Assembly: GCF_949628215.1 (NCBI RefSeq)
Contig: NW_027441204.1
Span: 50,001-114,000, forward strand
Direction: 5' to 3'
DNA from: Phalacrocorax aristotelis
Taxonomy: Eukaryota; Chordata; Aves; Suliformes; Phalacrocoracidae
DNA: 64,000 nt
The notes under the pieces were generated by a model that made no database searches, was not told the origin of the DNA, and was given only the letters and a program-made list of their open reading frames with translations. The position numbers and the translations under genes are program-made. This document shows positions 1 to 52,595 of the stretch, piece by piece. How positions within the stretch are numbered: the first letter of the stretch is position 1; each line of letters opens with the position of its first letter.

Positions 1-199
1 GTGTTTCTAAACGGTCTGCTGGCTGATGGTAAATGCTCGGCACCCCACTCTGCAGACTGGGGAGAGAGACAAATATCTCTCGACTCAGTGTGTTGATTGG
101 ATTTTGCACACCAGGGAAGAACCCTGATGTAGGGACAACATAAGCACTAACAATGTTCTCTGGGGAGGCCACTACCACCCCTCTGGGGGTCTGCTCTGA

Positions 200-434: not shown

Positions 435-479
435 TGGACCCGTTTGAGTTAACCGGAAGTTAAGCCCAGCCGCCCCCAG

Positions 480-1540
480 CCACCCAGAATTAGCTGAGGT
501 CGCTTGGAAAGCAAGGGGGTTTAACCTCTGCCAAATTATTCAACCCAACAGTGGATTGTGACCGTCTCCTTTTCTCCAGGCTGAAGAAACCAAGTGACTT
601 TAGCTGCTCCTTGTGTGGTTTCTCCTCTAAACCCTTCACCAACTTGTGGCCCTCCTCTGGGCATTCTCTAGTAGCTTTGTATCTGTAATGTACTGTGGCA
701 CCCAAAATTGCCCACAGCACTTAAGGTGAGGCCGCCCCAGCGTGGAGCAGAGCGGGACAATCCCCTCCCTCGACTGGCTGCCATGCAGGGCTCGATGCCC
801 CCCAGGGCACGGCTGGGCCTCTGGGCTGCCAGGGCACGCTGCTGGCTCGTGTTCAACTTGCCGTCGACCAGAACCCCCAGGTCCCTCTGCAGAGCTGCTC
901 CCCAGCCCCTCGTTCCCCAGGCTGTCTGTATATCCCAGGTTGCCATGCCCCAGGGGCAAAATCAGGCACTTGCCCTCATTAAACTTTATGCAGTTGGTGA
1001 TTGCCCAGCTCTCCAGCCTGTCCAGGAGACATGGTAGTGTTAGGAGATATGGTAGTCTTGGTGATCTTAGAGGTCTTTTCCAACCCTAATGATTCTGTGA
1101 TTCTATGGTCTCTCTACAGGGCCTCTCTGCCCTTGAGTGCCAACAGCTCCTCCCAGTTTTGTGTCGTCAGCAAGTTTAGTTAGTATTCCTTCAAGCCCTG
1201 CACCCAAGGCATTTACCAAGAGATTAAAGAGTACCAGAGCCAAGATGGATCCCTGTGCAACCCCACTAGTGACTGGCCGCCAGCCCGATGTAAGCCATTG
1301 ACTATGACCCTTTGAGCCCGACCCATCAGCCCATTGCTCACCCACTGCATGACGTGTTTATCCAGCTCTGTGCTGGACAGTTTGTCCAGGAGAAGACTGT
1401 GAGAGACAGTAGCGAAAGCTTTACTGAAATCCAAAAAGATCACATTGGCCGACTTCCCTTGTTCAGCTAGGTGCGTGACCTCGTCATCGAAGGAACTCAG
1501 ATTTGTCGTCGTTGCCCATTTGTCGCTCCAATTCATCCTC
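480..1540 (-). mobile_element. CR1 LINE fragment, reverse-transcriptase 3' half (copy A)
   Basis: Minus-strand translation gives CR1 ORF2 landmarks in order: VIFLDFSKAFATVSH, the TKLADDTKLGG active-site box (ADD), RDLGVLVDGKLNTSQQ, then LEEKPHKEQLKSLGFF near the 3' end. Frameshifts separate the pieces, so the copy is dead. A plus-strand CR1 tail lies inside it at about 1046-1107. The 5' end is truncated near 1540, as is usual for CR1. Confidence 0.92.
1046..1107 (+). mobile_element. CR1 3' tail nested in an opposite-strand CR1 (copy A)
   Basis: The text GATCTTAGAGGTCTTTTCC followed by AATGATTCTGTGATTCTATG is the CR1 3' UTR end with its ATTCTATG-type terminal repeat. It interrupts the minus-strand CR1 reading. 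Copy B has 18 extra bases at its 5' side (GGTTGACGGTTGGACT region), so copy A carries a small deletion here. Confidence 0.85.
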
Positions 1541-1544
1541 TCCC

Positions 1545-2300
1545 CCCAAATCCATACCCTGGCGGGCCTGCCTCAGGCCCTGGCAGGAGGGCTGGAGCAA
1601 TGGCCTTGGGGGGCGACGGGGTGGTTTCCGTTTCTGCGAGGCCTGGAGGGTGCTGGGCCGTTCCTGCAACACCTTGCTGGCCGAGTTGGACAGCCACGCG
1701 GGCAGGGGCGGAGGCGGCGGGGGCGGAGGCAGGCAGGCCGGGCGGCTGTCCGGGCCAGTGGGGGCTGGTTCCCCCCTGGTGCCCCATGGCTGGCGGGCCG
1801 CTTTCCCAGGCACACGTGATGGCTGCTGGTATCGGGTCCAGCTCTCGGAGGGGCTGGGGGGGTCAGTCCAGCTGTCCGGGCGTGAGGGGCAGCTGCTGGT
1901 GTCGGACCGGGCTCTCGAAGCTGCGGCGAGGCGCCTGCGGAGAGAGGAGGCTGCTGAGGCCCTGCCACGCCTGCGGTGCCCGGAGGGTGTGGGGCAGAGC
2001 TGCACGCCCCACGGGGTCTGGGAACCCGGCTGCATGTGGGAGCTGTGGGCACGGAGAGCTCTGTGCAGAAAATGGGGCGCCCCGCACCCCTCGGGTGGGG
2101 CTCTGCTCCCAGAAGCTGAGAGCTGGGAAGGTTTGTCACCACAGCCTGAGCTGCTGGGACACCTTGGCCAAGGGCAAGCTCTGGGATTTACAGCATCACC
2201 TAGCAGGGTGATTTCTGCCGCTAGGCTCACTGGCGGGGAGATGTCACTATTGCAATTCTCTCTTTCTACGGCAACGTCATGCCTTGTTGTTACTTCCTGA
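1545..2300. other. GC-rich block open in several frames, no gene recognised (copy A)
   Basis: High GC leaves long overlapping frames open on both strands (for example 265 codons from 1503 plus, 248 codons minus), and they stay open in copy B. There are CpGs and a glycine/purine-rich run near 1700-1730. No domain, signal peptide or convincing splice structure was identified. Openness here may only reflect base composition. Confidence 0.4.
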
Positions 2301-2516
2301 CCTTCCTCTGCCTATGTCGGTCACTGGCTCTGCTCTTGTCCAAGCAGGGTCCCTTTTAACCCACATTTGTCTCAGTAAGAAGGGGTTACAGAAAAGAATG
2401 CCCACGAATTGAGAGGCCAGTTAAAACTCAGCTCTCCAGAATACCCTGCCTCTAAATGAGTCTCAGCAAATAGCAGCCATCTCATGCAGAAGTTTGGCAA
2501 AAGACCTCCCAACGAC

Positions 2517-2665
2517 TCACCGTCTTCTCTTCCTCCACAGGTGGATCAGACAACAAAAAAACATCCCAAGCAGTATGGACCCCAAGACCGCCACGGCACC
2601 TTCTATGCAGAACTTCTGGAAATCCTTAGGATCCGTGTCGCTTGAGCTTCTCTTGCCATCCACAC
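2517..2665 (-). CDS. Candidate terminal exon: transmembrane segment and basic tail (copy A)
   Basis: On the minus strand an acceptor (CTGTTCCTCCAG) at 2666 opens an exon in phase 1 that ends at a TGA at 2519-2517. It encodes an acidic/serine stretch, a hydrophobic span of about 22 residues (GAVAVLGSILLGMFFCCLIH) and a short cytoplasmic tail ending WRKRRR. That is the layout of a type I membrane protein's last exon. Identical in copy B (45553-45701). The signal-peptide exon at 6149-6239 has the matching phase (1), so both may belong to one gene, but intermediate exons are not secure. Family not recognised. Confidence 0.45.
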
Positions 2666-2839
2666 CTGGAGGAACAGTTCTGCACGTTACTGTGTCCTGC
2701 GTGCTACTGGTAATCTCACAGGAGGCCTGACGTTGCCAGGAGATGTTTGTCCTCACTTTGTTAGCTTCTCTGAACCAGTGAACATCCTGGGGCTGCAACG
2801 TTTCCTTGGTTTCAGTAGAAACCAAGGAAAGTCCCAAAG

Positions 2840-5146
2840 CCCTTGCAAATCAATGCACTCTGGAGCATCTCTTTCTCCTCTCACCTCTGCCTACACTCCG
2901 GGATGGCCATAACCCAGTTTTCCCCGTGCCATGGGTTTGCTCCCCCTTCTTGGCTACCCTTCCCATTTGCACACAATGTCTTTGGCGCTCGCCCACCCTC
3001 GCTCTCCGAGGCTTGCTGGTGCCGCTGCACGGAGACTCTCTCTGACCCGTTGGGACAAGCTGTCCCACGGAACAGAACTCATGAGGCCAGATGGAGAGCA
3101 CATGGGGGAGCGCAGCTCTTTGACCAACCGCCCCTTTGAGCAGCACGGACAAAACCCATCCCTGCATCGGGGAGCGCCACCCCCAGCTCTCCCTCCCCAG
3201 CCCAGTGCCCACACCCCGAGGGCATGGAGTCAGGCCCTCTCAGGAGACACCTGACCCTTGTTCTCCCCCTTTGCCTTTTCTCCAGCGTGGGCACGCTTGC
3301 ACGCCTCCAGTTCTCAGGAGTTGTCTCCCACCTATGGCCCCTGCAAGACTGCTCAGTACCTGCACTCTTCTGAAAAAATTCATACGTCCTGGTGCGGTGG
3401 GCTTCCCCGGGGTTGGACAGCACTGCCAAGAAGGAGAGAAAGGAAAAGCCTCAGCATGGCTCAGGCCCACAGGATGCAGAAGGATGGTGCAGGATCCCTC
3501 TGCCCCAGCAGCGAATCCCTTTGGACCCCAGTTCACAGGAGGGATCCCCCTCTGTTGTGCCCAGGGCCTCTGGGGACTCACAGCAAGCTCGGGGTACTCA
3601 GGGAGGGACATTTGATTAAGAGTCGTCTTTCCCATCATCTACTGAACGTGGCTCAGGTGGCCTTGCTCCCAAAATGGCAGAGGTCTGAAAATCCTGTGAA
3701 TGGGCTGCGGTGGGAGGTGAGCATTCCACCACATCCGCAGAGGGTTACCAGCATCTCTCTGGCCCGCTGATGGCAATAACCACCGCAGCCCCGAGACGAC
3801 CGTCATCCTCAGAGAGCCGCTCCTGGCTTCTTTGAGAACACTAGCTCTGTACTAAGGGTTTGGCTGCCGACCCAATGTGCAGTAGCGGCACCAGGGGAGG
3901 AGCCTGCAGACGCCCAGCGCTTTTGATATGTGACCCTGGATGACTGGGGGGCAGCAAGTACTTGGCATGCCTGTTGATTGAATTGCTGCTGTTTTTTCAT
4001 CAGAGACTGGCACCGCGTGACCGCCTCTTTCCTGAAGCGCCTCCTTCCCCACAGTCTCACGGTCCATCTCTTTAGAAAGAGGGTCACTTTAATGAGAAGC
4101 AACCGTTCCTCATCAGGAGCGTGGTGTTTTCAGGAGGCAAAATACGTTAATAACACTTAGAAACAAAGCCTGGGCATTTGGGGGTGCACCTCGTCTCTAG
4201 TCCGAACTATGCGTCATTCGCAGAGAAAAATTTAAGCACTAGGCACTTTCCAGTTTACCAGTAGACAGCAAAAGCTGACCTACTGAGAGCCTAGGAGATT
4301 GCATGGCATCTTCTTGTTTGCACTTAGTTCATTTTTGGCAGACTTCAAGATGATGGTAAATGACTTTGTTCAGAGAGGACAGGAAGATGCTGCACCCAGT
4401 TCCGCTGGGGAAAGAGCCCTTTGGAGAAGCACGTCCCATCATGCCAACTCCATCACACGGTAAGGGCAACAGACACAGACGGCGGGCTGAACCCCAAGCT
4501 CTTGCAACCATGTTCTGGGCACTTTCACAAGTGGCAGCAAAGAGCCCACGGTCCCCCAAAGCAAGAGGAAAACCAGAGCCAAGTTTTCTAAAACACAGCT
4601 GGAAACAGACAGCTAAACCACCCAAGACTGAATTCACAGCCCCTCATTTTAGCTGCCTTCAAGTTAGCTGTCGGGCCTCAAGCTGGGTGTGCAGCTCTCA
4701 CCTGCCCCTGACCGTGAGGTGTCACCGAGAGACCTCAGACATCAAGGAGGACAACGGAGCCGGCTGGAGCAGGCTCCCATCCTTGCCAGGCATTCCTGCA
4801 GCCCCGGCAGGGTCTGCCGGTCTCAGTGACCCCAAAGCGCCTGCGCATCCTCATGCACACCATGCATGGAGCTTTCGGGAGAAAGGATTCCTTGGAGCTC
4901 ACACCAGCTCTGAACTCAAGCCCAGAGAGCCCGCGGGCTTTGCAGCAGCCACTGGGAGCAGCAGAGGCTCGGAGGGGCTGTCAAAGACACCTTCGCAAGG
5001 CAGAGTATCCCAGGGCACATCACCGAGCCCGAGCCGTGCCCTCTCTGCTCTTCTGCGTGTCTGAGCATTGGCCAAGAAATTGTTGAGTAAAATTTCACAT
5101 GAACAGCATCTTCAACCCTAAATGCACATTCCTTGAAGTGACATAC
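2840..5146. other. No secure gene: presumed intronic sequence (copy A)
   Basis: Both strands have medium open frames (for example 234 codons from 4360 plus) that persist in copy B, but none has recognisable domains, and copy B differences show no clear codon bias. The minus strand could hold further exons of the membrane-protein candidate. Confidence 0.3.
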
Positions 5147-5218
5147 CTGTGGGATCATCCTGAGGCTCCCAGAGAACATCTGCCTGAGGCGCCTGGAGAC
5201 CATGGCCTGGAGGCACGG
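5147..5218 (-). CDS. Candidate 24-codon internal exon (copy A)
   Basis: It is flanked by TTGATTACAG (acceptor) and GTATGT (donor) and is open in phase 0-0. The translation starts PCLQAMVSRRLRQMF and would form an amphipathic helix. It lies between the signal-peptide and transmembrane candidate exons, but its phase does not join directly to the neighbouring candidate exon at 5360-5459. Conserved in copy B at 48182-48253. Confidence 0.3.
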
Positions 5219-5359
5219 CTGTAATCAAGCACATTTCCATTAGCTGTTGTGATCGACTTCTTTCCCAGTGACCTGCAGTGACTGGAGGGGGGTCAGGTAA
5301 TGACACGGGTGGAGATTTCCAAAGCCGCAGAGGGGCCTGAGTGGCCTGTTGGCTGGCAC

Positions 5360-5459
5360 CTGGAAGCTCTCAAAATACTGTTTCCAGGCCGTGTGCCACA
5401 CGCCTCAAGCACCGGATGGACATACGGCCCCTTGGGGATTTCTTACTGGGAGATCTCTA
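5360..5459 (-). pseudogene. Exon-like segment with a nonsense codon in copy A
   Basis: A strong acceptor (CCTTTTTTGTGCACAG) and a CCAG|GTGCCA donor frame 100 bases. In copy B (48395-48494) the phase-1 frame is fully open and begins EISQYEIPKGPYVHP. In copy A codon TAC has become TAA (plus-strand TTA at 5443-5445, GTA at 48478-48480). If this is a real exon, copy A's gene is broken and copy B's is not. Family unknown. Confidence 0.4.
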
Positions 5460-6148
5460 CTGTGCACAAAAAAGGCCCACGTGGAAGCACTGGAGGGAAA
5501 AAATGGTCATTCACACATCTCGTGGAGAAGGGCCTGCTGGGCAGTGGGAGTGCCCCATCGCTGCCCCATCTGTTCCCCCGGGCTGAGGGCTGGGGCTGTG
5601 TGCCGGGGACCTGGGTTTGCCAAGGAGAGCACTGCAGGGCTAGAGCAGGAATGCTCCCGTCTTCCTGAGCGGACGTCTCCCCAGGACAGACATCCCCGAG
5701 GCTGAAAGCTGGACCCAGCTGGGGAGCGGCAGAGCCACGGCCCCGGGCACAGCTGTCACCAGCCCGGCATAGAAGCGCTCCCGAAGGCTACTGCCTTGCT
5801 CTGCTGTGCAGCGCTGGCGCCGACGTGCAGGCTGCGGGAAGGCTGCAGCGGGACTGGGTGGCACAGGGCCAGCTCTAGGGATGCTTTCTCACCCCACGGC
5901 ACTGCTCCCGGCCCCACCATTCACCTGGAAAATCCCCCTGCAGTGGCCGCGGCCCCCGGCGCCTCCCCGCAGCACAACTGCCTCCCACTTGCCCCTGGAG
6001 CCGGCCATGGCTCCCCTGGCTCAGCCCAGCCCTGCTGCTCTCCCAGCCTTGCCCCACCATGGTCCCGGCCCCGCTACCACCCCAATGTGCGCTGGGCGCT
6101 GCTCCACGCTGCCCAGGGCTGCATGCCAGCCCTCGCCTGCCCACCTAC

Positions 6149-6239
6149 CTAATCCCCATGCTTGCCATGGAGCAGCCTGGATGTCCTGGGCTTGCAGGGC
6201 CACCAATAGGAGGATAATAAGGAGGCACGTGGGGGCCAT
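6149..6239 (-). CDS. Candidate first coding exon: signal peptide (copy A)
   Basis: On the minus strand an ATG in a GGGACCATGG context starts MAPTCLLIILLLVALQA, a textbook signal peptide (h-region of about 13 residues, small residues before a likely cleavage site). After 30 codons it reaches a GTAGGT donor in phase 1. Upstream on this strand are a CAG-repeat leader and a TATA-like GATATATTG near 6354. Copy B (49184-49274) changes two residues next to the cleavage region (QDI to GDT). It is probably the 5' exon of a secreted or type I membrane protein gene. Confidence 0.55.
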
Positions 6240-6261
6240 GGTCCCCCGTGCCTGCACCGTG

Positions 6262-6326
6262 CTGCTGCTGCTGCGGCTGCTGCTGCTGCTGCGGCTGCTG
6301 CTGCTACCGCTGCTGCTGCCGGCACT
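6262..6326. repeat. Imperfect CTG/CAG trinucleotide repeat (copy A)
   Basis: A run of CTG with CGG, CTA and CCG interruptions lies in the presumed 5' leader of the signal-peptide exon (CAG on its coding strand). Copy B (49297-49361) has the same total length but different interruption positions. Confidence 0.85.
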
Positions 6327-6399
6327 GGCCAAGCTGTACCCGCGGCACAGCACAATATATCATGGCACGGCACAGCGGGGTCTGTGACCTCACAGTGCG

Positions 6400-8139
6400 C
6401 CCTCCCCACCCACCCAGCCACGCCCATGGGGTGCCACCCCGCCCCTAAGCACTGCTCCCCTGGAACACCCCACCCCACTTGTCACCTCGGGAGGGGGACT
6501 TTCACAGCCTGGCCAGCGCTGCCCCTCTGTCCACCCCTGTGATCTCTGCTGCAGAGTTTCTTTGCGTTTCCTTCCCCACTCTGTGATGGAGCAGCCAGAT
6601 GCAGCAGACTTGTGAACACAAGGGATTTCTCCTTCCAGGTCCGCTAGAGCCCAATCAGGTGGACTCTCGCACCCAGGAGGCTCGTCCTATCCCAGCCTGA
6701 TGGATGTGGCTGCTGCTGTTGCCGTGTGTGTGTCCGAGAGACTTGCGCTGCTTTCCAAAGGGCCAGACACACCAACACACGCGCAGACTTACACAATTAA
6801 TGTGACCAGCAAAAGAGATGGGCACAGTCGGAGCAATGCCTTTGCCAGCACCCATGTATACGCAACCACTGCTTAGATAAACACGAACACAGCCCGGTCC
6901 TTTTCTGCCTTTCCAGATGAGCAGGGCTGGATGTTTACTGGTGAAACATAAACACACCTTCACTCCCTAGATTCATAAGCGCAGCGTGTTCATAGATTCC
7001 TCCAATAACAGCCTGGAAATCAAGTACCTGCAATATCCGTGGCTGGCTGTCAAGCTCCTCACCCAGTCATGGGTGCAAACCTTGGGCCTTTCTAGGTAGA
7101 ATGTAGGACTTTGAAATATGGCACTCCTTGAAAACGTTGCTCGTTCAGTAGTGGGTTGACTTGTTCCTGGCTGGCAAACTGAAGAGCACCGTGAGGTCAG
7201 GCTGCCAAAAGCCGAGCTGGTGCTCTTGAGGAGAATGCCCATCGACTGTAAATAGGGAAATCTGGCATGCTTTCGAAAACCTGGTGCGCAACACAACACT
7301 GCTGTTTCAAAAGAGCATTAAAAGAGTATATTTAAAAGAGCATTAACAGCATCGTGAATATTTACACACAATCTCCAGGTGCAGACCGCCTTCCCTGGGG
7401 AGAAGGGACATGCTATTCACATAAACAGCCGATGTCTTTCCCTGTTTTCAATATCCCTGGGCAGCTGAGACATTGCCTGCGGACGTAGATGAGAGCCCCC
7501 AGCCCCTGGAGGGGGGGCTGGAGGATGGGCACGTCAAAGGACCCTGATGGGAGCCCTGCAGGGCCTCATCCCTTGGACCAACGGGCACCTTCCCTTGTCA
7601 CACAGAGCATCTCATGGGCTGGAAAAGGGATGCTCTGCAGAGTTGCTGGCAAGTCTCTGGAGAAGAGCTTCCCCCTCCGCCTCTCCCAAGGCCTCTCTCA
7701 GCTCCAGCGCCCTTCCCAAGGACAGCCGCAGCAGGTGGGTGCAGGCAGCACTGCAGGGAAGGACAGGCAGCGGCCACAAGAGTCGGCACTGCGGGAAAGG
7801 CGGCACCCCGGAGAGCCTGCCGGGGTCCCCAGTGTGTGCGAGACAGTGCCCAGGAGGGTGGTTTTAAATCTAGGCTACCCCCTGTCTAACCATCTATGTG
7901 AGAGTACAACCTGACCCGGTGTGACACATAACACCAGCGCTGTGAAGAGATGTGACGTTCAAATGAAAAATGGGACAGTTTGAACAGCTTTTAGTAGCCT
8001 GCAGGAAGCAAAAGGGGAAGCGCTGTATATAGAACAAAAAAATAGACTGAATAAATTTCTGAACCTGCTGTGAGAAGTTATGCCATATCGAAGTGCACGT
8101 CTGCAAGCCCTGCGCTGCACTATGTGAGCCCTGCTCACA
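6400..8139. other. No gene recognised (copy A)
   Basis: Includes a 108-codon minus-strand frame (6973-7299) and GC-rich stretches near 7490-7860 open in several frames. Nothing resembles a known domain. A short AT-rich patch with repeated AAAAGAGCATTA lies at 7310-7345. Confidence 0.3.
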
Positions 8140-8605
8140 TGCAGTGATCTGGCTGATGGGGCAGAGTGTACCCTCGGACAGCTTGCAGGTGGCACAGAAG
8201 TGGGAGGAGAGGCCCATGCGCCGGCGGGTCGTGCTGCCGACCAGAGGGGCCCTGAGAGGCTGGAGAAAGGGGCTGACAGGACCCTCATGCAGCTCACCCC
8301 GGGGAAGGGCAAAGTCCCGCACCTGGGAAGGAACAAGCCCTTGCACCAGTACACGCTGGGGGACACCCAGCTGGAAAGCAGCTGTGCAGACTCCTGGGGA
8401 CATGGTGGACCCCCAGCTGACCAGTTTGGAGCCGGCAAAGTGCTCCTGGGGCACAGGCGGCTAACTGAGTCCTGGGCTGCAGTAGGCAAGGCATCAGCAG
8501 GAGATGGAGGGAGGTGACCCTTCCCCTGTGCTGTGTCCAGCTCTGGGCTCCCCAGTGCAAGACTCACAGAGCCATACTGGAGAGACTCCCCGCCCAGTTT
8601 CCGTT
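8140..8605 (+). mobile_element. CR1 LINE fragment, plus strand (copy A)
   Basis: Plus-strand frames carry CR1 ORF2 landmarks: HLGRNKPLHQYTLGDTQLES at about 8318-8380, preceded by RLEKG, and later the CTGTGTCCAGCTCTGGGCTC segment. Degenerate and frameshifted. Copy B equivalent at 51175-51640. Confidence 0.85.
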
Positions 8606-9560
8606 GGGGTCGGACCGTTGGAGCCAACCGCCACCAGTGCCGGCAGGACGGAGCTGTGCTGGCGTGGAGCAGCGCTGGGAGGAGGCAGAGTCTGGCGTCG
8701 GTCTCGGACTAGCAAGCAGGTGACTTTAGAGCAGAACACATTTTTCTCTGGACTTTGGGTAGGAAAAAACAGCCTTCACTGAGTGGTCTGGGAGGTGGTT
8801 AACAGATTGACTTTCAGCCTGAAGTCCTTCAATCTCTGCTAATTGAATATGGTGCCTGTGCAGATGGGATACACTGTGCAATGTCACTGATTTTTCCTGT
8901 CGTCTCTAACCCAAAACTCAAACGAAGTCCTGTCCCCTCGGCTCCTTATCTGAGCGTAGACAAGAGTCACCTTAACTTAATGGAACGTCAAGATTCACTC
9001 TATTTTTATCACCTTAGAATATGCAACAAATAAATACTTCCTTATTACTCAGCTTTCCAGAACGTGATTTGGTTTGACTTGCTAGAATCCAGGTGGGGAT
9101 TTGCTTGTCTGTAGTGCTGCAGTGGGATTACTGGCAGCGAGCGTTTGTGTGGTGGTGATGCCTAAAGAGACGAGTTGGGTTGGTGCTCCACTGTGTTAGT
9201 TTGCCGATCAACCTGATAAATCTCAGAGTTTGAGGTGGAAAGGCAAGCTGTGTGCTGACGTAAGCGTATAGCCTGTGAGTTACTTATGTTTGTGAAAAAA
9301 TGACATCGTTTTGTAAGTCTTATTTCTTAAATCTAAGTAAGCTGGGAACAGGGAAAGTAAAGGTTCAGAAGGATCACGTCACACCTTGAATCTGTGTCTA
9401 CCAAAGTGATTTGCAATCGAATGTAGTTGTAACTCTCCGTTGCCTCAGGGAGTTTTTCTACACCACAAAGAAGTGGTTCACTTTTGAACGTGAAGAACAT
9501 GAAGAACCTTTGGTGGGGAAATTTGGTTGTTGTGTGGTAAAGGTTATGAAGAGTCCTCGT
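8606..9560. other. AT-richer end of duplicon, no gene seen (copy A)
   Basis: Base composition drops toward AT from about 8750 and resembles the unique DNA that follows copy B (52596 on). This suggests the duplicon's right part was copied from that locus and that copy B is the parental location. Confidence 0.4.
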
Positions 9561-40510: not shown

Positions 40511-41039
40511 GTTAAATAAACCACCCCTGAATTGCTCCTTGCCCACTGCTGCTTCTGCTTCTTCTCCTCACACCCTGCCTTGATGCACACAGGCCTGGGA
40601 GACCCTTCTCGTGGAGACTGAGGAAAGGAAGATTTCTGAGGATGCAGCTCTGACCTACCTGCACCTCCTCTTCCTATTTCATCTGCTCGATTCGGCAGCA
40701 GGCCCGCGGTTTCCCTTTTCATCGCCTTACTGTTAATGAAGCAGTAGCAGCTCATCACTCTGCCCATACCCTCACTTGCAAGCGTCTCTCCTAGGGAAGC
40801 CAGGGACGTGACGGACACCCGGCTGCACCCTACGACACTCCGAGGTCTAGAGAGAGACAAAGACCCCAAACCTCAGGAAATAAGACACCGAAAAATCATA
40901 AGTGAGATCGAAGGGTTGAAAGAACCAGGATGGTCAGCCTTGAAACCTTGCCTAGAGAGAACAGAAAGCCCCTAAAGCAGAGAGATGGGAATAGCTGCCC
41001 TGGGGCTCACCATTGCTCAGGCAGAAGCCATGGCAGGAG
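40511..41039. other. No gene recognised
   Basis: Intergenic sequence between the CR1 fragment and the LTR-like segment. A 151-codon minus frame (40414-40869) has no known features. Confidence 0.3.
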
Positions 41040-41424
41040 GTGAAGTAACACCCTAACTCAGTGATAACTGGCAGGATGAAGGGATGACCTCCGGTTACCT
41101 TAGGCAATTATGCTGCTAAAAAGCACACCCCTAGGAGGAGACCTGAGATGGAAATGTGAGCCCACCTTAACATAATGAGCCCAGCTAAAAGGAAGATGTG
41201 TGCGGATGAACTATTGTACAAGTAACCAAGCAGATATTTTAATGGAACATCTCTTGTTATTGTTTTGTATAAAAGACCCCCCCCGTGTTTCTAAACGGTC
41301 TGCTGGCTGATGGTAAATGCTCGGCACCCCACTCTGCAGACTGGGGAGAGAGACAAATATCTCTCGACTCAGTGTGTTGATTGGATTTTGCACACCAGGG
41401 AAGAACCCTGATGTAGGGACAACA
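41040..41424 (+). mobile_element. LTR-like segment (approximate limits)
   Basis: Has the layout of an avian endogenous retroviral LTR: AT-rich upstream part, TATAAAAG at 41268-41275, a C-run, then a U5-like part with CTCGACTCAGTGTGTTGATT and a terminal GGGACAACA. No matching 5' TG end was fixed and no viral gene lies nearby, so it would be a solo LTR. Its downstream part (from 41285) is inside the duplicon and is repeated at 1-140. Confidence 0.4.
41268..41275 (+). promoter_or_regulatory. TATA box of the LTR-like segment
   Basis: TATAAAAG about 30 bp before the C-run and the duplicon edge. A start site near 41300 would transcribe toward the minisatellite. Confidence 0.45.
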
Positions 41425-41483
41425 TAAGCACTAACAATGTTCTCTGGGGAGGCCACTACCACCCCTCTGGGGGTCTGCTCCGA

Positions 41484-41564
41484 CAAGGGAGAAAATGGCG
41501 GCGGACGAAGGCAGCGCGCTTGTGCGGCACCACACGGCATGCTGGGAGCTGTAGTGCCATGCCC
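41484..41564. promoter_or_regulatory. Promoter relic: YY1-like plus ZNF143/THAP11-like sites (copy B)
   Basis: Same YY1-like AAAATGGCGGC and first box GGCATGCTGGGAGCTGTAGT as copy A. This box alone carries the full CATGC end of the SBS consensus; array units read CATGG instead, so this is probably the founder site. Confidence 0.6.
41495..41554 (+). CDS. Micro-ORF starting in the YY1 box (copy B)
   Basis: Identical to 211-270: a 19-codon MAADEGSALV... frame ending in the first array box. Confidence 0.25.
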   Translation: MAADEGSALVRHHTACWEL

Positions 41565-43452
41565 CACAGCAGGCCAGGGCACCACCCCAGCAGCTGTGGG
41601 TGTGTGTGGGGCCCCAGGCCATGCTGGGAGCTGTAGTGCCATGCCCCACAGCAGGCCAGGGCACCACTTCTAGTGGCTGTGGGTGTGTGTGGGGCCCCAG
41701 GCCATGCTGGGAGCTGTAGTGCCATGCCCCACAGCAGGCCAGGGCACCACTTCTAGTGGCTGTGGGTGTGTGTGGGGCCCCAGGCCATGCTGGGAGCTGT
41801 AGTGCCATGCCCCACAGCAGGCCAGGGCACCACCCCAGTGGCTGTGGGTGTGTGTGGGGCCCCAGGCCATGCTGGGAGCTGTAGTGCCATGCCCCACAGC
41901 AGGCCAGGGCACCACTTCTAGTGGCTGTGGGTGTGTGTGGGGCCCCAGGCCGTGCTGGGAGCTGTAGTGCCATGCCCCACAGCAGGCCAGGGCACCACCC
42001 CAGCGGCTGTGGGTGTGTGTGGGGTCCCAGGCCATGCTGGGAGCTGTAGTGCCATGCCCCACAGCAGGCCAGGGCACCACCCCAGCGGCTGTGGGTGTGT
42101 GTGGGGCCCCAGGCCATGCTGGGAGCTGTAGTGCCATGCCCCACAGCAGGCCAAGGCACCACCCCAGCGGCTGTGGGTGTGTGTGGGGCCCCAGGCCATG
42201 CTGGGAGCTGTAGTGCCATGCCCCACAGCAGGCCAGGGCACCACTTCTAGTGGCTGTGGGTGTGTGTGGGGCCCCAGGCCATGCTGGGAGCTGTAGTGCC
42301 ATGCCCCACAGCAGGCCAGGGCACCACCCCAGCGGCTGTGGGTGTGTGTGGGGCCCCAGGCCATGCTGGGAGCTGTAGTGCCATGCCCCACAGCAGGCCA
42401 GGGCACCACTTCTAGTGGCTGTGGGTGTGTGTGGGGCCCCAGGCCATGCTGGGAGCTGTAGTGCCATGCCCCACAGCAGGCCAGGGCACCACTTCTAGTG
42501 GCTGTGGGTGTGTGTGGGGCCCCAGGCCGTGCTGGGAGCTGTAGTGCCATGCCCCACAGCAGGCCAGGGCACCACCCCAGCGGCTGTGGGTGTGTGTGGG
42601 GCCCCAGGCCATGCTGGGAGCTGTAGTGCCATGCCCCACAGCAGGCCAGGGCACCACCCCAGCGGCTGTGGGTGTGTGTGGGGCCCCAGGCCATGCTGGG
42701 AGCTGTACTGCCATGCCCCACAGCAGGCCAGGGCACCACTTCTAGTGGCTGTGGGTGTGTGTGGGGCCCCAGGCCATGCTGGGAGCTGTAGTGCCATGCC
42801 CCACAGCAGGCCAGGGCACCACCCCAGCGGCTGTGGGTGTGTGTGGGGCCCCAGGCCATGCTGGGAGCTGTAGTGCCATGCCCCACAGCAGGCCAGGGCA
42901 CCACTTCTAGTGGCTGTGGGGGTGTGTGGGGCCCCAGGCCATGCTGGGAGCTGTAGTGCCATGCCCCACAGCAGGCCAGGGCACCACTTCTAGTGGCTGT
43001 GGGTGTGTGTGGGGCCCCAGGCCATGCTGGGAGCTGTAGTGCCGTGCCCCACAGCAGGCCAGGGCACCACTTCTAGTGGCTGTGGGTGTGTGTGGGGCCC
43101 CAGGCCATGCTGGGAGCTGTAGTGCCGTGCCCCACAGCAGGCCAGGGCACCACTTCTAGTGGCTGTGGGTGTGTGTGGGGCCCCAGGCCATGCTGGGAGC
43201 TGTAGTGCCATGCCCCACAGCAGGCCAGGGCACCACCCCAGCGGCTGTGGGTGTGTGTGGGGCCCCAGGCCATGCTGGGAGCTGTAGTGCCATGCCCCAC
43301 AGCAGGCCAGGGCACCACTTCTAGTGGCTGTGGGGGTGTGTGGGGCCCCAGGCCATGCTGGGAGCTGTAGTGCCATGCCCCACAGCAGGCCAGGGCACCA
43401 CTTCTAGTGGCTGTGGGTGTGTGTGGGGCCCCAGGCCATGCTGGGAGCTGTA
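41536..43452. repeat. 82/83-bp minisatellite, 23 spacers and 24 boxes (copy B)
   Basis: I read 10 spacers of type CCCCAG(C/T) (82 bp) and 13 of type CTTCTAGT (83 bp). The predicted excess over copy A (21x82+12 = 1734) equals the observed offset change. Boxes read TGGGAGCTGTAGT, except one with TGTACT near 42706 and the last with TATGG. Types are interspersed in irregular order, so expansion was by many small exchanges rather than one block duplication. Minus and plus frames are free of stops across most of it. Confidence 0.96.
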
Positions 43453-43497
43453 TGGACCCGTTTGAGTTAACCAGAAGTTAAGCCCAGCCGCCCCCAG

Positions 43498-44576
43498 CCA
43501 CCCAGAATTAGCTGAGGTCACTTGGAAAGCAAGGGGGTTTAACCTCTGCCAAATTATTCAACCCAACAGTGGATTGTGACCGTCTCCTTTTCTCCAGGTT
43601 GAAGAAACCAAGTGACTTTAGCTGCTCCTTGTGTGGTTTCTCCTCTAAACCCTTCACCAACTTGTGGCCTTCCTCTGGGCATTCTCTAGTAGCTTTGTAT
43701 CTGTAATGTACTGTGGCACCCAAAACTGCCCACAGCACTTAAGGTGAGGCCGCCCCAGCGTGGAGCAGAGCGGGACAATCCCCTCCCTCGACTGGCTGCC
43801 ATGCAGGGCTCGATGCCCCCCAGGGCACGGCTGGGCCTCTGGGCTGCCAGGGCACGCTGCTGGCTCGTGTTCAACTTGCCGTCGACCAGAACCCCCAGGT
43901 CCCTCTGCAGAGCTGCTCCCCAGCCCCTCGTTCCCCAGGCTGTCTGTATATCCCAGGTTGCCATGCCCCAGGGGCAAAATCAGGCACTTGCCCTCATTAA
44001 ACTTTATACAGTCAGTGATTGCCCAGCTCTCCAGCCGGTCCAGGAGACATGGTAGTGTTAGGAGATATGGTAGTCTCGGGTTGACGGTTGGACTTGGTGA
44101 TCTTAGAGGTCTTTTCCAACCCTAATGATTCTGTGATTCTATGGTCTCTCTACAGGGCCTCTCTGCCCTCGAGTGCCAACAGCTCCTCCCAGTTTTGTGT
44201 CGTCAGCAAGTTTAGTTAGTATTCCTTCAAGCCCTGCACCCAAGGCATTTACCAAGAGATTAAAGAGTACCAGAGCCAAGATGGAGCCCTGTGCAACCCC
44301 ACTAGTGACTGGCCGCCAGCCCGATGTAAGCCATTGACTATGACCCTTTGAGCCCGACCCATCAGCCCATTGCTCACCCACTGCATGACGTGTTTATCCA
44401 GCTCTGTGCTGGACAGTTTGTCCAGGAGAAGACTGTGAGAGACAGTAGCGAAAGCTTTACTGAAATCCAAAAAGATCACATTGGCCGACTTCCCTTGTTC
44501 AGCTAGGTGCGTGACCTCATCATCGAAGGAACTCAGATTTGTCGTCGTTGCCCATTTGTCGCTCCAATTCATCCTC
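43498..44576 (-). mobile_element. CR1 LINE fragment, reverse-transcriptase 3' half (copy B)
   Basis: Copy B of the element at 480-1540, with the same landmarks (LDFSKAFATVSH, LADDTKLGG, DLGVLVDGKLN) and the same nested plus-strand CR1 tail. Confidence 0.92.
44074..44143 (+). mobile_element. CR1 3' tail nested in an opposite-strand CR1 (copy B)
   Basis: Longer than in copy A by 18 bp (GGGTTGACGGTTGGACT retained), then the same ATTCTGTGATTCTATG end. It is the more complete version, so the deletion happened in copy A. Confidence 0.87.
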
Positions 44577-44580
44577 TCCC

Positions 44581-45336
44581 CCCAAATCCATACCCTGGCG
44601 GGCCTGCCTCAGGCCCTGGCAGGAGGGCTGGAGCAATGGCCTTGGGGGGCGACGGGGTGGTTTCCGTTTCTGCGAGGCCTGGAGGGTGCTGGGCCGTTCC
44701 TGCAACACCTTGCTGGCCGAGTTGGACAGCCACGCGGGCAGGGGCGGAGGCGGCGGGGGCGGAGGCAGGCAGGCCGGGCGGCTGTCCGGGCCAGTGGGGG
44801 CTGGTTCCCCCCTGGTGCCCCATGGCTGGCGGGCCGCTTTCCCAGGCACACGTGATGGCTGCTGGTATCGGGTCCAGCTCTCGGAGGGGCTGGGGGGGTC
44901 AGTCCAGCTGTCCGGGCGTGAGGGGCAGCTGCTGGTGTCGGGCCGGGCTCTCGAAGCTGCGGCGAGGCGCCTGCGGAGAGAGGAGGCTGCTGAGGCCCTG
45001 CCACGCCTGCGGTGCCCGGAGGGTGTGGGGCAGAGCTGCGCGCCCCACGGGGTCTGGGAACCCGGCTGCATGTGGGAGCTGTGGGCACGGAGAGCTCTGT
45101 GCAGAAAATGGGGCGCCCCGCACCCCTCGGGTGGGGCTCTGCTCCCAGAAGCTGAGAGCTGGGAAGGTTTGTCACCGCAGCCTGAGCTGCTGGGACACCT
45201 TGGCCAAGGGCAAGCTCTGGGATTTACAGCATCACCTAGCAGGGTGATTTCTGCCGCTAGGCTCACTGGCGGGGAGATGTCACTATTGCAATTCTCTCTT
45301 TCTACGGCAACGTCATGCCTTGTTGTTACTTCCTGA
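44581..45336. other. GC-rich block open in several frames (copy B)
   Basis: Equivalent of 1545-2300, still open over 265 codons plus and 248 codons minus, with a few substitutions. No gene recognised. Confidence 0.4.
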
Positions 45337-45552
45337 CCTTCCTCTGCCTATGTCGGTCACTGGCTCTGCTCTTGTCCAAGCAGGGTCCCTTTTAACCCAC
45401 ATTTGTCTCAGTAAGAAGGGGTTACAGAAAAGAATGCCCACGAATTGAGAGGCCAGTTAAAACTCAGCTCTCCAGAATACCCTGCCTCTAAATGAGTCTC
45501 AGCAAATAGCAGCCATCTCATGCAGAAGTTTGGCAAAAGACCTCCCAACGAC

Positions 45553-45701
45553 TCACCGTCTTCTCTTCCTCCACAGGTGGATCAGACAACAAAAAAACAT
45601 CCCAAGCAGTATGGACCCCAAGACCGCCACGGCACCTTCTATGCAGAACTTCTGGAAATCCTTAGGATCCGTGTCGCTTGAGCTTCTCTTGCCATCCACA
45701 C
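45553..45701 (-). CDS. Candidate terminal exon: transmembrane segment and basic tail (copy B)
   Basis: Same coding content as 2517-2665, no disabling change seen. With the open exon-like segment at 48395-48494, copy B is the better candidate for a working gene. Confidence 0.45.
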
Positions 45702-48181
45702 CTGGAGGAACAGTTCTGCACGTTACTGTGTCCTGCGTGCTACTGGTAATCTCACAGGAGGCCTGACGTTGCCAGGAGATGTTTGTCCTCACTTTGTTAG
45801 CTTCTCTGAACCAGTGAACATCCTGGGGCTGCAACGTTTCCTTGGTTTCAGTAGAAACCAAGGAAAGTCCCAAAGCCCTTGCAAATCAATGCACTCTGGA
45901 GCATCTCTTTCTCCTCTCACCTCTGCCTACACTCCGGGATGGCCATAACCCAGTTTTCCCCGTGCCATGGGTTTGCTCCCCCTTCTTGGCTACCCTTCCC
46001 ATTTGCACACAATTTCTTTGGCGCTCGCCCACCCTCGCTCTCCGAGGCTTGCTGGTGCCGCTGCACGGAGACTCTCTCTGACCCGTTGGGACAAGCTGTC
46101 CCACGGAACAGAACTCATGAGGCCAATGGAGAGCACATGGGGGAGCGCAGCTCTTTGACCAACCGCCCCTTTGAGCAGCACGGACAAAACCCATCCCTGC
46201 ATCGGGGAGCGCCACCCCCAGCTCTCCCTCCCCAGCCCAGTGCCCACACCCCGAGGGCATGGAGTCAGGCCCTCTCAGGAGACACCTGACCCTTGTTCTC
46301 CCCCTTTGCCTTTTCTCCAGCGTGGGCACGCTTGCACGCCTCCAGTTCTCAGGAGTTGTCTCCCACCTATGGCCCCTGCAAGACTGCTCAGTACCTGCAC
46401 TCTTCTGAAAAAATTCATACGTCCTGGTGCGGTGGGCTTCCCCGGGGTTGGACAGCACTGCCAAGAAGGAGAGAAAGGTAAAGCCTCAGCATGGCTCAGG
46501 CCCACAGGATGCAGAAGGATGGTGCAGGATCCCTCTGCCCCAGCAGCGAATCCCTTTGGACCCCAGTTCACAGGAGGGATCCCCCTCTGTTGTGCCCAGG
46601 GCCTCTGGGGACTCACAGCAAGCTCGGGGTACTCAGGGAGGGACATTTGATTAAGAGTCGTCTTTCCCATCATCTACTGAACGTGGCTCAGGTGGCCTTG
46701 CTCCCAAAATGGCAGAGGTCTGAAAATCCTGTGAATGGGCTGCGGTGGGAGGTGAGCATTCCACCACATCCGCAGAGGGTTACCAGCATCTCTCTGGCCC
46801 GCTGATGGCAATAACCACCGCAGCCCCGAGACGACCGTCATCCTCAGAGAGCCGCTCCTGGCTTCTTTGAGAACACTAGCTCTGTACTAAGGGTTTGGCT
46901 GCCGACCCAATGTGCAGTAGCGGCACCAGGGGAGGAGCCTGCAGACGCCCAGCGCTTTTGATATGTGACCCTGGATGACTGGGGGGCAGCAAGTACTTGG
47001 CATGCCTGTTGATTGAATTGCTGCTGTTTTTTCACCAGAGACTGGCACCGCGTGACTGCCTCTTTCCTGAAGCGCCTCCTTCCCCACAGTCTCACGGTCC
47101 ATCTCTTTAGAAAGAGGGTCACTTTAATGAGAAGCAGCCGTTCCTCATCAGGAGCGTGGTGTTTTCAGGAGGCAAAATACGTTAATAACACTTAGAAACA
47201 AAGCCTGGGCATTTGGGGGTGCACCTCGTCTCTAGTCTGAACTATGTGTCATTCGCAGAGAAAAATTTAAGCACTAGGCACTTTCCAGTTTACCAGTAGA
47301 CAGCAAAAGCTGACCTACTGAGAGCCTAGGAGATTGCATGGCATCTTCTTGTTTGCACTTAGTTCATTTTCGGCAGACTTCAAGATGATGGTAAATGACT
47401 TTGTTCAGAGAGGGCAGGAAGATGCTGCACCCAGTTCCGCTGGGGAAAGAGCCCTTTGGAGAAGCACGTCCCATCATGCCAACTCCATCACACGGTAAGG
47501 GCAACAGACACAGACGGCGGGCTGAACCCCAAGCTCTTGCAACCATGTTCTGGGCACTTTCACAAGTGGCAGCAAAGAGCCCACAGTCCCCCAAAACAAG
47601 AGGAAAACCAGAGCCAAGTTTTCTAAAACACAGCTGGAAACAGACAGCTAAACCACCCAAGGCTGAAGTCACAGCCCCTCATTTTAGCTGCCTTCAAGTT
47701 AGCTGTCGGGCCTCAAGCTGGGTGTGCAGCTCTCACCTGCCCCTGACCGTGAGGTGTCACCGAGAGACCTCAGACATCAAGGAGGACAACGGAGCTGGCT
47801 GGAGCAGGCTCCCATCCTTGCCAGGCATTCCTGCAGCCCCGGCAGGGTCTGCCGGTCTCAGTGACCCCAAAGTGCCTGCACATCCTCATGCACACCATGC
47901 ATGGAGCTTTCGGGAGAAAGGATTCCTTGTAGCTCACACCAGCTCTGAACTCAAGCCCAGAGAGCCCACGGGCTTTGCAGCAGCCACTGGGAGCAGCAGA
48001 GGCTCGGAGGGGCTGTCAAAGACACCTTCGCAGGGCAGAGTATCCCAGGGCACATCACCGAGCCCGAGCCGTGCCCTCTCTGCTCTTCTGCGTGTCTGAG
48101 CATTGGCCAAGAAATTGTTGAGTAAAATTTCACATGAACAGCATCTTCAACCCTAAATGCACATTCCTTGAAGTGACATAC

Positions 48182-48253
48182 CTGTGGGATCATCCTGAGG
48201 CTCCCAGAGAACATCTGCCTGAGGCGCCTGGAGACCATGGCCTGGAGGCACGG
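48182..48253 (-). CDS. Candidate 24-codon internal exon (copy B)
   Basis: Copy of 5147-5218 with the same acceptor, donor and open phase 0-0 frame. Confidence 0.3.
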
Positions 48254-48394
48254 CTGTAATCAAGCACATTTCCATTAGCTGTTGTGATCGACTTCTTTCC
48301 CAGTGACCTGCAGTGACTGGAGGGGGGTCAGGTAATGACACGGGTGGAGATTTCCAAAGCCGCAGAGGGGCCTGAGTGGCCTGTTGGCTGGCAC

Positions 48395-48494
48395 CTGGAA
48401 GCTCTCAAAATACTGTTTCCAGGCCGTGTGACACACGCCTCAAGCACCGGATGGACATACGGCCCCTTGGGGATTTCGTACTGGGAGATCTCTA
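48395..48494 (-). CDS. Candidate internal exon, open in copy B
   Basis: A 15-base pyrimidine-rich acceptor, then 32 full codons in phase 1 to phase 2, ending at CCAG|GTGCCA. Contains EISQYEIPKGPYVHP and a single cysteine in LEACVTRPG. The aligned copy A segment has a nonsense codon. Family not recognised. Confidence 0.42.
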
Positions 48495-49183
48495 CTGTGC
48501 ACAAAAAAGGCCCACATGGAAGCACTGGAGGGAAAAAATGGTCATTTGCACATCTCGTGGAGAAGGGCCTGCTGGGCAGTGGGAGTGCCCCATCGCTGCC
48601 CCATCTGTTCCCCCGGGCTGAGGGCTGGGGCTGTGTGTCGGGGACCTGGGTTTGCCAAGGAGAGCACTGCAGGGCTAGAGCAGGAATGCTCCCGTCTTCC
48701 TGAGCGGACGTCTCCCCAGGACAGACATCCCCGAGGCTGAAAGCTGGACCCAGCTGGGGAGCGGCAGAGCCACGGCCCCGGGCACAGCTGTCACCAGCCC
48801 GGCATAGAAGCGCTCCCGAAGGCTACTGCCTTGCTCTGCTGTGCAGCGCTGGCGCCGACGTGCAGGCTGCGGGAAGGCTGCAGCGGGACTGGGTGGCACA
48901 GGGCCAGCTCTAGGGATGCTTTCTCACCCCACGGCACTGCTCCCGGCCCCACCATTCACCTGGAAAATCCCCCTGCAGTGGCCGCGGCCCCCGGCGCCTC
49001 CCCGCAGCACAACTGCCTCCCACTTGCCCCTGGAGCCGGCCATGGCTCCCCTGGCTCAGCCCAGCCCTGCTGCTCTCCCAGCCTTGCCCCACCATGGTCC
49101 CGGCCCCGCTACCACCCCAATGTGCGCTGGGCGCTGCTCCACGCTGCCCAGGGCTGCATGCCAGCCCTCGTCTGCCCACCTAC

Positions 49184-49274
49184 CTAATCCCCATGCTTGC
49201 CATGGAGCAGCCTGGGTGTCCCCGGCTTGCAGGGCCACCAATAGGAGGATAATAAGGAGGCACGTGGGGGCCAT
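49184..49274 (-). CDS. Candidate first coding exon: signal peptide (copy B)
   Basis: MAPTCLLIILLLVALQAGDT, donor GTAGGT after 30 codons. Two amino-acid differences from copy A fall at the likely cleavage region (GDT against QDI). Preceded on this strand by a CAG-repeat leader. Confidence 0.55.
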
Positions 49275-49296
49275 GGTCCCCCGTGCCTGCACCGTG

Positions 49297-49361
49297 CTGC
49301 TGCTGCTGCGGCTGCTGCTGCTACCGCTGCTGCTGCTGCTACTGCTGCTGCTGCTGGCACT
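49297..49361. repeat. Imperfect CTG/CAG trinucleotide repeat (copy B)
   Basis: Same length as copy A (offset unchanged on both sides), but the CGG, CTA, CCG and ACT interruptions are rearranged. Confidence 0.85.
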
Positions 49362-51174
49362 GGCCAAGCTGTACCCGCGGCACAGCACAATATATCATGG
49401 CACGGCACAGCGGGGTCTGTGACCTCACAGTGCGCCCTCCCCACCCACCCAGCCACGCCCATGGGGTGCCACCCCGCCCCTAAGCACTGCTCCCCTGGAA
49501 CACCCCACCCCACTTGTCACCTCGGGAGGGGGACTTTCACAGCCTGGCCAGCGCTGCCCCTCTGTCCACCCCTGTGATCTCTGCTGCAGAGTTTCTTTGC
49601 GTTTCCTTCCCCACTCTGTGATGGAGCAGCCAGATGCAGCAGACTTGTGAACACAAGGGATTTCTCCTTCCAGGTCCGCTAGAGCCCAATCAGGTGGACT
49701 ATCGCACCCAGGAGGCTCGTCCTATCCCAGCCTGATGGATGTGGCCGCTGCTGTTGCTGTGTGTGTGTCCGAGAGACTTGCGCTGCTTTCCAAAGGGCCA
49801 GACACACCAACACACGCGCAGACTTACACAATTAATGTGACCGGCAAAAGAGATGGGCACAGTCGGAGCAATGCCTTTGCCAGCACCCATGTATACGCAA
49901 CCACTGCTTAGATAAACACGAACACAGCCCGGTCCTTTTCTGCCTTTCCAGATGAGCAGGGCTGGATGTTTACTGGTGAAACATAAACACACCTTCACTC
50001 CCTAGATTCATAAGCGCAGCGTGTTCATAGATTCCTCCAATAACAGCGTGGAAATCAAGTACCTGCAATATCCGTGGCTGGCTGTCAAGCTCCTCACCCA
50101 GTCATGGGTGCAAACCTTGGGCCTTTCTAGGTAGAATGTAGGACTTTGAAATATGGCACTCCTTGAAAACGTTGCTCGTTCAGTAGCGGGTTGACTTGTT
50201 CCTGGCTGGCAAACTGAAGAGCACCGTGAGGTCAGGCTGCCAAAAGCCGAGCTGGTGCTCTTGAGGAGAATGCCCATCGACTGTAAATAGGGAAATCTGG
50301 CATGCTTTCGAAAACCTGGTGCGCAACACAACACTGCTGTTTCAAAAGAGCATTAAAAGAGTATATTTAAAAGAGCATTAACAGCATCGTGAATATTTAC
50401 ACACAATCTCCAGGTGCAGACCGCCTTCCCTGGGGAGAAGGGACATGCTATTCACATAAACAGCCGATGTCTTTCCCTGTTTTCAATATCCCTGGGCAGC
50501 TGAGACATTGCCTGCGGACGTAGATGAGAGCCCCCAGCCCCTGGAGGGGGGGCTGGAGGATGGGCACGTCAAAGGGGCCTGATGGGAGCCCTGCAGGGCC
50601 TCATCCCTTGGACCAACGGGCACCTTCCCTTGTCACACAGAGCGTCTCATGGGCTGGAAAAGGGACGCTCTGCAGAGTTGCTGGCAAGTCTCTGGAGAAG
50701 AGCTTCCCCCTCCGCCTCTCCCAAGGCCTCTCTCAGCTCCAGCGCCCTTCCCAAGGACAGCCGCAGCAGGTGGGTGCAGGCAGCACTGCAGGGAAGGACA
50801 GGCAGCGGCCACAAGAGTCGGCACTGCGGGAAAGGCGGCACCCCGGAGAGCCTGCCGGGGTCCCCAGTGTGTGCGAGACAGTGCCCAGGAGGGTGGTTTT
50901 AAATCTAGGCTACCCCCTGTCTAACCATCTATGTGAGAGTACAACCTGACCCGGTGTGACACATAACACCAGCGCTGTGAAGAGATGTGACGTTCAAATG
51001 AAAAATGAGACAGTTTGAACAGCTTTTAGTAGCCTGCAGGAAGCAAAAGGGGAAGCGCTGTATATAGAACAAAAAAATAGACTGAATAAATTTCTGAACC
51101 TGCTGTGAGAAGTTATGCCATATCGAAGTGCACGTCTGCAAGCCCTGCGCTGCACTATGTGAGCCCTGCTCACA

Positions 51175-51640
51175 TGCAGTGATCTGGCTGATGGGGCAGA
51201 GTGTACCCTCGGACAGCTTGCAGGTGGCACAGAAGTGGGAGGAGAGGCCCATGCGCCGGCGGGTCGTGCTGCCGACCAGAGGGGCCCTGAGAGGCTGGAG
51301 AAAGGGGCTGACAGGACCCTCATGCAGCTCACCCCGGGGAAGGGCAAAGTCCCGCACCTGGGAAGGAACAAGCCCTTGCACCAGTACACGCTGGGGGACA
51401 CCCAGCTGGAAAGCAGCTGTGCAGACTCCTGGGGACATGGTGGACCCCCAGCTGACCAGTTTGGAGCCGGCAAAGTGCTCCTGGGGCACAGGCGGCTAAC
51501 TGAGTCCTGGGCTGCAGTAGGCAAGGCATCAGCAGGAGATGGAGGGAGGTGACCCTTCCCCTGTGCTGTGTCCAGCTCTGGGCTCCCCAGTGCAAGACTC
51601 ACAGAGCCATACTGGAGAGACTCCCCGCCCAGTTTCCGTT
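51175..51640 (+). mobile_element. CR1 LINE fragment, plus strand (copy B)
   Basis: Copy of 8140-8605 with the same HLGRNKPLHQYTLGDTQLES coding landmark. Confidence 0.85.
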
Positions 51641-52595
51641 GGGGTCGGACCGTTGGAGCCAACCGCCACCAGTGCCGGCAGGACGGAGCTGTGCTGGCGT
51701 GGAGCAGCGCTGGGAGGAGGCAGAGTCTGGCGTCGGTCTCGGACTAGCAAGCCGGTGACTTTAGAGCAGAACACACTTTTCTCTGGACTTTGGGTAGGAA
51801 AAAACAGCCTTCACTGAGTGGTCTGGGAGGTGGTTAACAGATTGACTTTCAGCCTGAAGTCCTTCAATCTCTGCTAATTGAATATGGTGCCTGTGCAGAT
51901 GGGATACACCGTGCAATGTCACTAATTTTGCCTGTCGTCTCTAACCCAAAACTCAAACGAAGTCCTGTCCTGTCGGCTCCTTATCTGAGCGTAGACAAGA
52001 GTCACCTTAACTTAATGGAACGTCAAGATTCACTCTATTTTTATCACCTTAGAATATGCAACAAATAAATACTTCCTTATTACTCAGCTTTCCAGAACGT
52101 GATTTGGTTTGACTTGCTAGAATCCAGGTGGGGATTTGCTTGTCTGTAGTGCTGCAGTGGGATTACTGGCAGCGAGCGTTTGTGTGGTGGTGATGCCTAA
52201 AGAGACGAGTTGGGTTGGTGCTCCACTGTGTTAGTTTGCCGATCAACCTGATAAATCTCAGAGTTTGAGGTGGAAAGGCAAGCTGTGTGCTGACGTAAGC
52301 GTATAGCCTGTGAGTTACTTATGTTTGTGAAAAAATGACATCGTTTTGTAAGTCTTATTTCTTAAATCTAAGTAAGCTGGGAACAGGGAAAGTAAAGGTT
52401 CAGAAGGATCACGTCACACCTTGAATCTGTGTCTACCAAAGTGATTTGCAATCGAATGTAGTTGTAACTCTCCGTTGCCTCAGGGAGTTTTTCTACACCA
52501 CAAAGAAGTGGTTCACTTTTGAACGTGAAGAACATGAAGAACCTTTGGTGGGGAAATTTGGTTGTAGTGTGGTAAAGGTTATGAAGAGTCCTCGT

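Follow-up and report, generated by a model that had tools for sequence, protein, structure and literature searches.

Minisatellites in which each unit carries a factor site have precedents in HRAS1 and INS, both gene-proximal VNTRs with a short GC-rich unit, a factor site per unit and differences in length. The sites of interest here are of the type bound by THAP11 (Ronin), ZNF143 and their partners. M4/Ronin elements are housekeeping gene promoter elements according to PMC10329844, which also reports that Ronin/THAP11 bridges DNA in vitro and forms droplets and nuclear puncta, and which describes the preparation of fluorescent DNA bearing 20 Ronin motifs. In the pull-downs described in PMC5006282, THAP11 and HCF-1 need the ACTAYR half of the element, and Ikaros and NFKB1 need the TCCC half. 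No description of an array of ZNF143/THAP11 sites was found among the matches listed in a search of titles and abstract beginnings of the open-licence literature.

We analyzed a 64-kb stretch of the genome of Phalacrocorax aristotelis (64,000 nucleotides, hereafter the window) that contains such an array. It is of a kind already known, a minisatellite with a factor-type site in each unit, and is an unusual example of it.

Structure and motif content of the array

Tandem Repeats Finder detected a minisatellite at 41538-43452 with a period of 83, 23.2 copies and 96% matches. It lies in one of two copies of a duplicon, of which the other carries a much shorter version of the same repeat. The features concerned are the following:

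1..9560, plus strand: duplicon copy A, truncated by the left edge of the window
41285..52595, plus strand: duplicon copy B
41537..43454, minus strand: minisatellite composed of 23 units, each of 82 or 83 bp, and a terminal part, with 24 SBS/M4-type elements, 22 of them with an intact M4 core
41537..41555, minus strand: first SBS, ACTACAGCTCCCAGCATGC, the top extended M4 match in the window (20/21), common to copy A
42691..42709, minus strand: element of unit 15, core lost (ACTACA to AGTACA)
43436..43454, minus strand: terminal element, truncated at the right end of the array, core lost (CATACA)
253..436, minus strand: the array in copy A, made up of one a unit, one b unit and a terminal part, with 3 SBS elements, 2 of them with an intact M4 core

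The units lie head to tail, are highly alike and fall in the size range of about 10-100 bp by which minisatellites are defined. All 24 elements of the ACTACAGCTCCCAGCATGG type are on the minus strand, and the distance from one to the next is 82 or 83 bp in all 23 intervals. With up to 3 mismatches allowed, the 19-mer has 29 matches in the window against 0.06 expected from shuffles: the array accounts for 24, copy A for 3 (253, 335, 418) and the rest of the window for 2 (29318, 55236). The array is a real repeat, and its density of elements is far above chance. An earlier note, made from the letters of this DNA, had described an element in every unit, a dense array and about 22 intact copies at 82-83 bp, and these counts bear it out on all three points.

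The exact 19-mer is present in 19 of the 24 elements, and one has the first-unit form ending in C. Two read CACGG and retain the M4 core, which is absent from two others (42691-42709 and 43436-43454). The exact M4/THAP11 consensus ACTAYRNNNCCCR is thus found in 22/24 array elements and 2/3 of those of copy A, with no match outside these two in the 64 kb (0.43 expected). The array starts and finishes with one 16-bp part of the element, CATGCTGGGAGCTGTA; the element itself thus bounds the repeat, which alternates 24 elements with 23 inserts of 66-67 bp. Ten units are of a type a, 82 bp long, and 13 of a type b, 83 bp long; the two types differ at four positions inside 7 bp, a 1-bp gap being one of the four. 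Three unit-specific variants are each found in a pair of units (6 and 13, 17 and 22, 19 and 20), suggesting that units have been copied within the array. CpG is depleted, with 12 in 1918 bp (observed/expected 0.05).

To score the motifs we used published consensuses as given in PMC5006282 and PMC10329844. Against the extended M4 consensus, intact units score 19/21 and the first unit 20/21, and 19/21 is reached at 2 places of the window outside the two arrays. The best score against the full Ronin consensus CTGGGARWTGTAGTY is 13/15, at 24 places in the two arrays and 2 elsewhere, and the mismatches of intact units fall throughout on the same two positions, the W and the last Y. For the full ZNF143 SBS consensus YWCCCRNMATSCMYYRCR the best score in the arrays is 16/18 (25 places), and elsewhere in the window 16/18 is found at 8 places and 17/18 at 2. 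Scored against the 27-letter SBS2 sequence of PMC7154149, 22 of the elements in both arrays together reach 17/27, as do 5 further places of the window. The description "near-perfect SBS" given in the earlier note consequently holds for the THAP11/M4 half, with its exact core in 22 elements, and is overstated for the ZNF143 half, which at 16/18 is undistinctive by itself since equal or better matches lie at 10 other places of the window. Judged from these matches, the distinctive part of the predicted element is its exact ACTAYRNNNCCCR core. The first-unit 19-mer is also identical to a stretch of a primer given for human PSD-95 mRNA (PMC9569565), which indicates that the variant of the element with GC between its halves exists at a real gene.

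Several other readings of the repeat were discarded. The array is traversed by open frames as long as 384 aa, which a short repeated unit with few stops readily produces; a coding function is contradicted by a unit length (82/83 bp) that is not a multiple of 3, and no protein relatives of these frames were found in a first search (559 candidates, none at E<=0.001) or a second one (14 candidates, none at E<=10). Tandem Repeats Finder scores longer periods slightly higher, as a higher-order repeat would require, but the order of unit types is without significant periodicity at offsets 1-11 (lowest P 0.14). Hairpin or cruciform units were rejected because single-strand folding, computed for two units on both strands (z 0.30 to 1.03), was no better than in shuffled sequence. 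A possible relative on a viral contig (L001) shares only the 19-mer in a locally AT-rich context and was taken as chance, and a scan for sigma-70 promoters, which relies on a bacterial consensus, was uninformative for the array.

Duplicon copies, age of the array and selection on the motif

The two paralogous copies differ in unit number, with 2 in copy A (one of each type, neither departing from the consensus) and 23 in copy B. The earlier note was right in giving copy A only 2-3 elements (3 counted, 2 intact). To the right of the array, 68 substitutions separate the copies over 9123 aligned bp (0.745%), and to the left a single one over 253 bp; the differences in the flanks are uneven, from 1 to 14 per aligned kb.

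We used these flank rates to date the array, assuming equal rates and taking variants common to two units as one event. Array B carries eight independent mutations, where 4.77 would be predicted to have accumulated since the duplication (P = 0.11). This dates the array with many units to 0.72-3.31 times the age of the duplication (95% interval), so that it is possibly as old as the duplication, or older. On these dating assumptions the many-unit array would not be of recent build, and copy A may have contracted just as well as copy B may have expanded. The expansion from 2 to 23 units that had been proposed for this locus is therefore unsupported in its direction. The simplest ancestor would be a single-element site.

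No sign of selection on the motif was detected. Two of the eight mutation events fall in the 19-bp element, matching its share of the length (p = 1.0), and type-a units have lost 2 of their 10 CpGs, through the transitions that methylated CpG typically undergoes, where the flank rates predict 0.40 (P = 0.06). Neither test favours a site bound and unmethylated in the germ line, and both rest on small counts (8 events, 10 CpGs). An M4 core intact in 22 of the 24 elements is also what selection for binding would give; because units are homogenised, it is uninformative on selection.

Other repeats and frames were noted in and around the duplicon. A 233-bp stretch is 99.1% identical between 9559-9791, at the right break of copy A, and 26862-27094, 17 kb off, so this boundary of the duplicon coincides with another duplication. 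TGC trinucleotide repeats of about 20 copies, with interruptions differently placed, are located at 6260-6319 (A) and 49295-49356 (B). A reading frame on the minus strand that ends LLGMFFCCLIHLWRKRRR lies at 45553-45885 and 2517-2849, duplicated along with the array. Of 16 candidate proteins compared with 45553-45885, 12 match it; 11 of these are unnamed, and the other, from Pseudopipra pipra, has 52% identity across 49% of the query. The frame likely encodes the C-terminus of a small membrane-anchored protein. Elsewhere in the window, an ADCY10-like exon was noted at 19237-19752. When 10 proteins chosen from 215 ORFs were submitted to Pfam, 3 were matched, all below the curated cut-off, as MROH2B-like HEAT (two frames) and reverse transcriptase (one), the latter presumably of the CR1 type. 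No relatives of 15721-16167 were found in the PDB. A large degenerate minisatellite with periods of about 21, 41 and 62 bp (TAAAAGTGAGGGTTTGG...) occupies 59040-63756; it switches strand near 62.62 kb, so that its halves are inverted, and it has a possible likeness to the 41-bp CNM/PO41 repeats known in chicken and quail.

The left edge of the array and its possible activities

The DNA to the left of the array has the following features:

41492..41502, plus strand: perfect YY1-type word, AANATGGCGGC, about 34 bp left of the first SBS
208..218, plus strand: YY1-type word of copy A
41470..41536, no strand: CpG-rich stretch with 8 CpG in 67 bp (observed/expected 1.10), which contains the YY1-type word and adjoins the array
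40903..41424, plus strand: possible solo LTR of 522 bp with TG...CA ends, flanking TAAG on both sides and TATAAA at 41268

We take AANATGGCGGC to be the YY1-type consensus; its perfect form occurs twice in the window, each time beside an array (0.08 expected). By a working definition of our own, a CpG-type core promoter combines YY1-type and SBS/M4 words within 100 bp, and at the left edge of the array both words are found less than 100 bp apart in CpG-rich DNA. No exon was identified downstream of this candidate promoter piece. A second duplicated pair, 29287-29342 and 55205-55260, contains a YY1-like word, AACATGGCCGC (10/11), in very GC-rich DNA, with CTCCCAGCATGCCCCGGG, the best ZNF143-consensus match of the window (17/18), starting 38 bp past AACATGGCCGC; it is likely that this pair is another promoter core copied in the region. 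The assignment of 40903..41424 as a solo LTR is a possible lead, for which the 4-bp repeat is weak evidence, and neither AATAAA nor ATTAAA occurs within it.

The reading that we prefer, with a probability of roughly 0.6, is that the minisatellite began when the element in a likely duplicated YY1 + M4/SBS promoter core was duplicated in tandem, and that its units turn over without being selected for the motif. The starting point would have been a promoter core, likely an orphan, carried in a segmental duplication. Tandem duplication at its element would have set off the minisatellite, and unequal exchange or replication slippage would have driven the later turnover of units. Points against this reading are the first-unit variant standing at a real gene (PMC9569565) and the long open frames through the array. 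In the present array, the edge by the YY1-type word, with the first SBS, would be the part likeliest to be active as a promoter, through presumed binding of THAP11/HCFC1 and possibly of ZNF143. Such activity of the core-promoter piece is putative, and its promoter-side element is the best candidate.

YY1 words near start sites have the orientation seen at the left edge of the array. Taken with the enrichment of YY1 words just downstream of starts reported in PMC11118474, this orientation suggests that transcription would run rightward into the array. The remaining units would be mostly passengers, whose contribution of sites would scale roughly with their number. A toy model in which sites compete with nucleosomes, with weights of our own choosing and without direct cooperativity, gave as an example occupancies of 0.75 for the middle of 24 sites, 0.79 for the middle of 3 and 0.64 for a lone site. 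Cooperative eviction of nucleosomes by array length was discarded, as nothing was gained past 3 sites in this model, and the similar occupancy of 24 and 3 sites argues that length by itself would not act as a switch, barring direct cooperation between proteins.

In a second reading the repeat would be a working cis-regulatory array: THAP11/HCFC1 would occupy many units together, so that a local hub or a strong promoter results, one that might cluster with other THAP11-bound promoters. With 22 intact M4 cores in 1.9 kb, a YY1-type word at the edge, and the bridging and droplets of Ronin in PMC10329844 making direct cooperation conceivable, this reading has arguments of its own; we nevertheless consider it unlikely, given that the motif shows no sign of selection, that CpG decay is not reduced, that the Ronin consensus is matched only at 13/15 and equalled at 2 places outside the arrays, and that the toy model without direct cooperativity yields no benefit of length past 3 sites. 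Its stronger form, in which the 22-site array would seed a THAP11 hub scaled by the number of units and the copies with 2 and 22 intact sites would differ in output or clustering, we hold to be more doubtful still.

The same left edge could serve repression. ZNF143 bound just downstream of starts is reported to repress, and YY1 words to be enriched there (PMC11118474); as the YY1-type word is followed 34 bp to its right by the first SBS, a rightward transcript initiated near this word might be halted by bound ZNF143/THAP11 as by a roadblock. The start site on which this depends is only putative and the ZNF143 half scores 16/18, and we regard such a roadblock as improbable.

The contrast between 3 and 24 elements might also reflect the assembly, if A and B were alleles showing VNTR variation or if the length of the array were mis-assembled. 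Near-identical tandem repeats are hard to assemble, and the range of heterozygosity in outbred birds includes the 0.745% divergence measured here. Against this, A and B are separated by 41-43 kb inside the window, and past 9560 and 52595, where they cease to match, their sequences are unlike, which makes an artefact quite improbable.

Finally, the proposals of the earlier note that the array could act as a factor sponge, strong insulator or loop anchor, in favour of which many sites lie in one place, are very improbable: 22 sites amount to 0.5% of 4682 ZNF143 ChIP peaks (PMC11118474), which makes a sponge unlikely, and looping by ZNF143, presented as a chromatin-looping factor in a 2020 review (PMC7154149), is disputed in PMC11687419 (2025), which reports that ZNF143 is without general looping activity and that SINE B2 ZNF143-CTCF motif pairs are without ChIP signal. 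Nor was a CTCF word found in each unit: against a CTCF consensus, the array reaches 11/14 at one place, below the rest of the window (13/14 at 3 places and 12/14 at 30).

Comparison with known systems

Near-identical duplicons, 0.745% apart to the right of the array and carrying 2 and 22 intact elements, would constitute a natural dose experiment for the proposed clustering of promoters by THAP11, and the same pair would test whether ZNF143/THAP11 motifs borne by repeats are bound. If the array does act as a hub, it would be an in-genome counterpart of the synthetic DNA with 20 Ronin sites; if it is unbound, it would show that a promoter element can be amplified through repeat turnover without function.

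With the HRAS1 and INS minisatellites the array shares its general plan, whereas those involve other factors and comparisons between alleles, and here paralogous copies are compared. The likeness to M4/Ronin (THAP11) sites (PMC5006282, PMC10329844) consists of the exact ACTAYRNNNCCCR in 22/24 elements and a YY1-type word close by; the sites known from these sources are promoter elements at a mean of 81 bp upstream of starts, and here they form a tandem array. Like the ZNF143/STAF SBS (PMC5006282, PMC7154149), the elements have the CTCCCAG core and the ACTACA submotif in place; unlike it, they reach at best 16/18, and the C of ATSC is G in all array elements but the first. The SINE B2 ZNF143-CTCF copies also bear ZNF143-type motifs on a repeat (PMC11687419), but they are dispersed and reported to be without ChIP signal, whereas the array is tandem. 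The DXZ4/Dxz4 macrosatellite is, like the array, a tandem repeat with a site for a regulatory protein in each unit, and in mouse a promoter at the side of the Dxz4 array is reported to drive transcription across the repeat (PMC3491370). The mouse units measure 3.8-5.7 kb and their binding by CTCF has been demonstrated (PMC3491370), whereas the units described here measure 82/83 bp, have CTCF words at background level and carry predicted THAP11-type sites.
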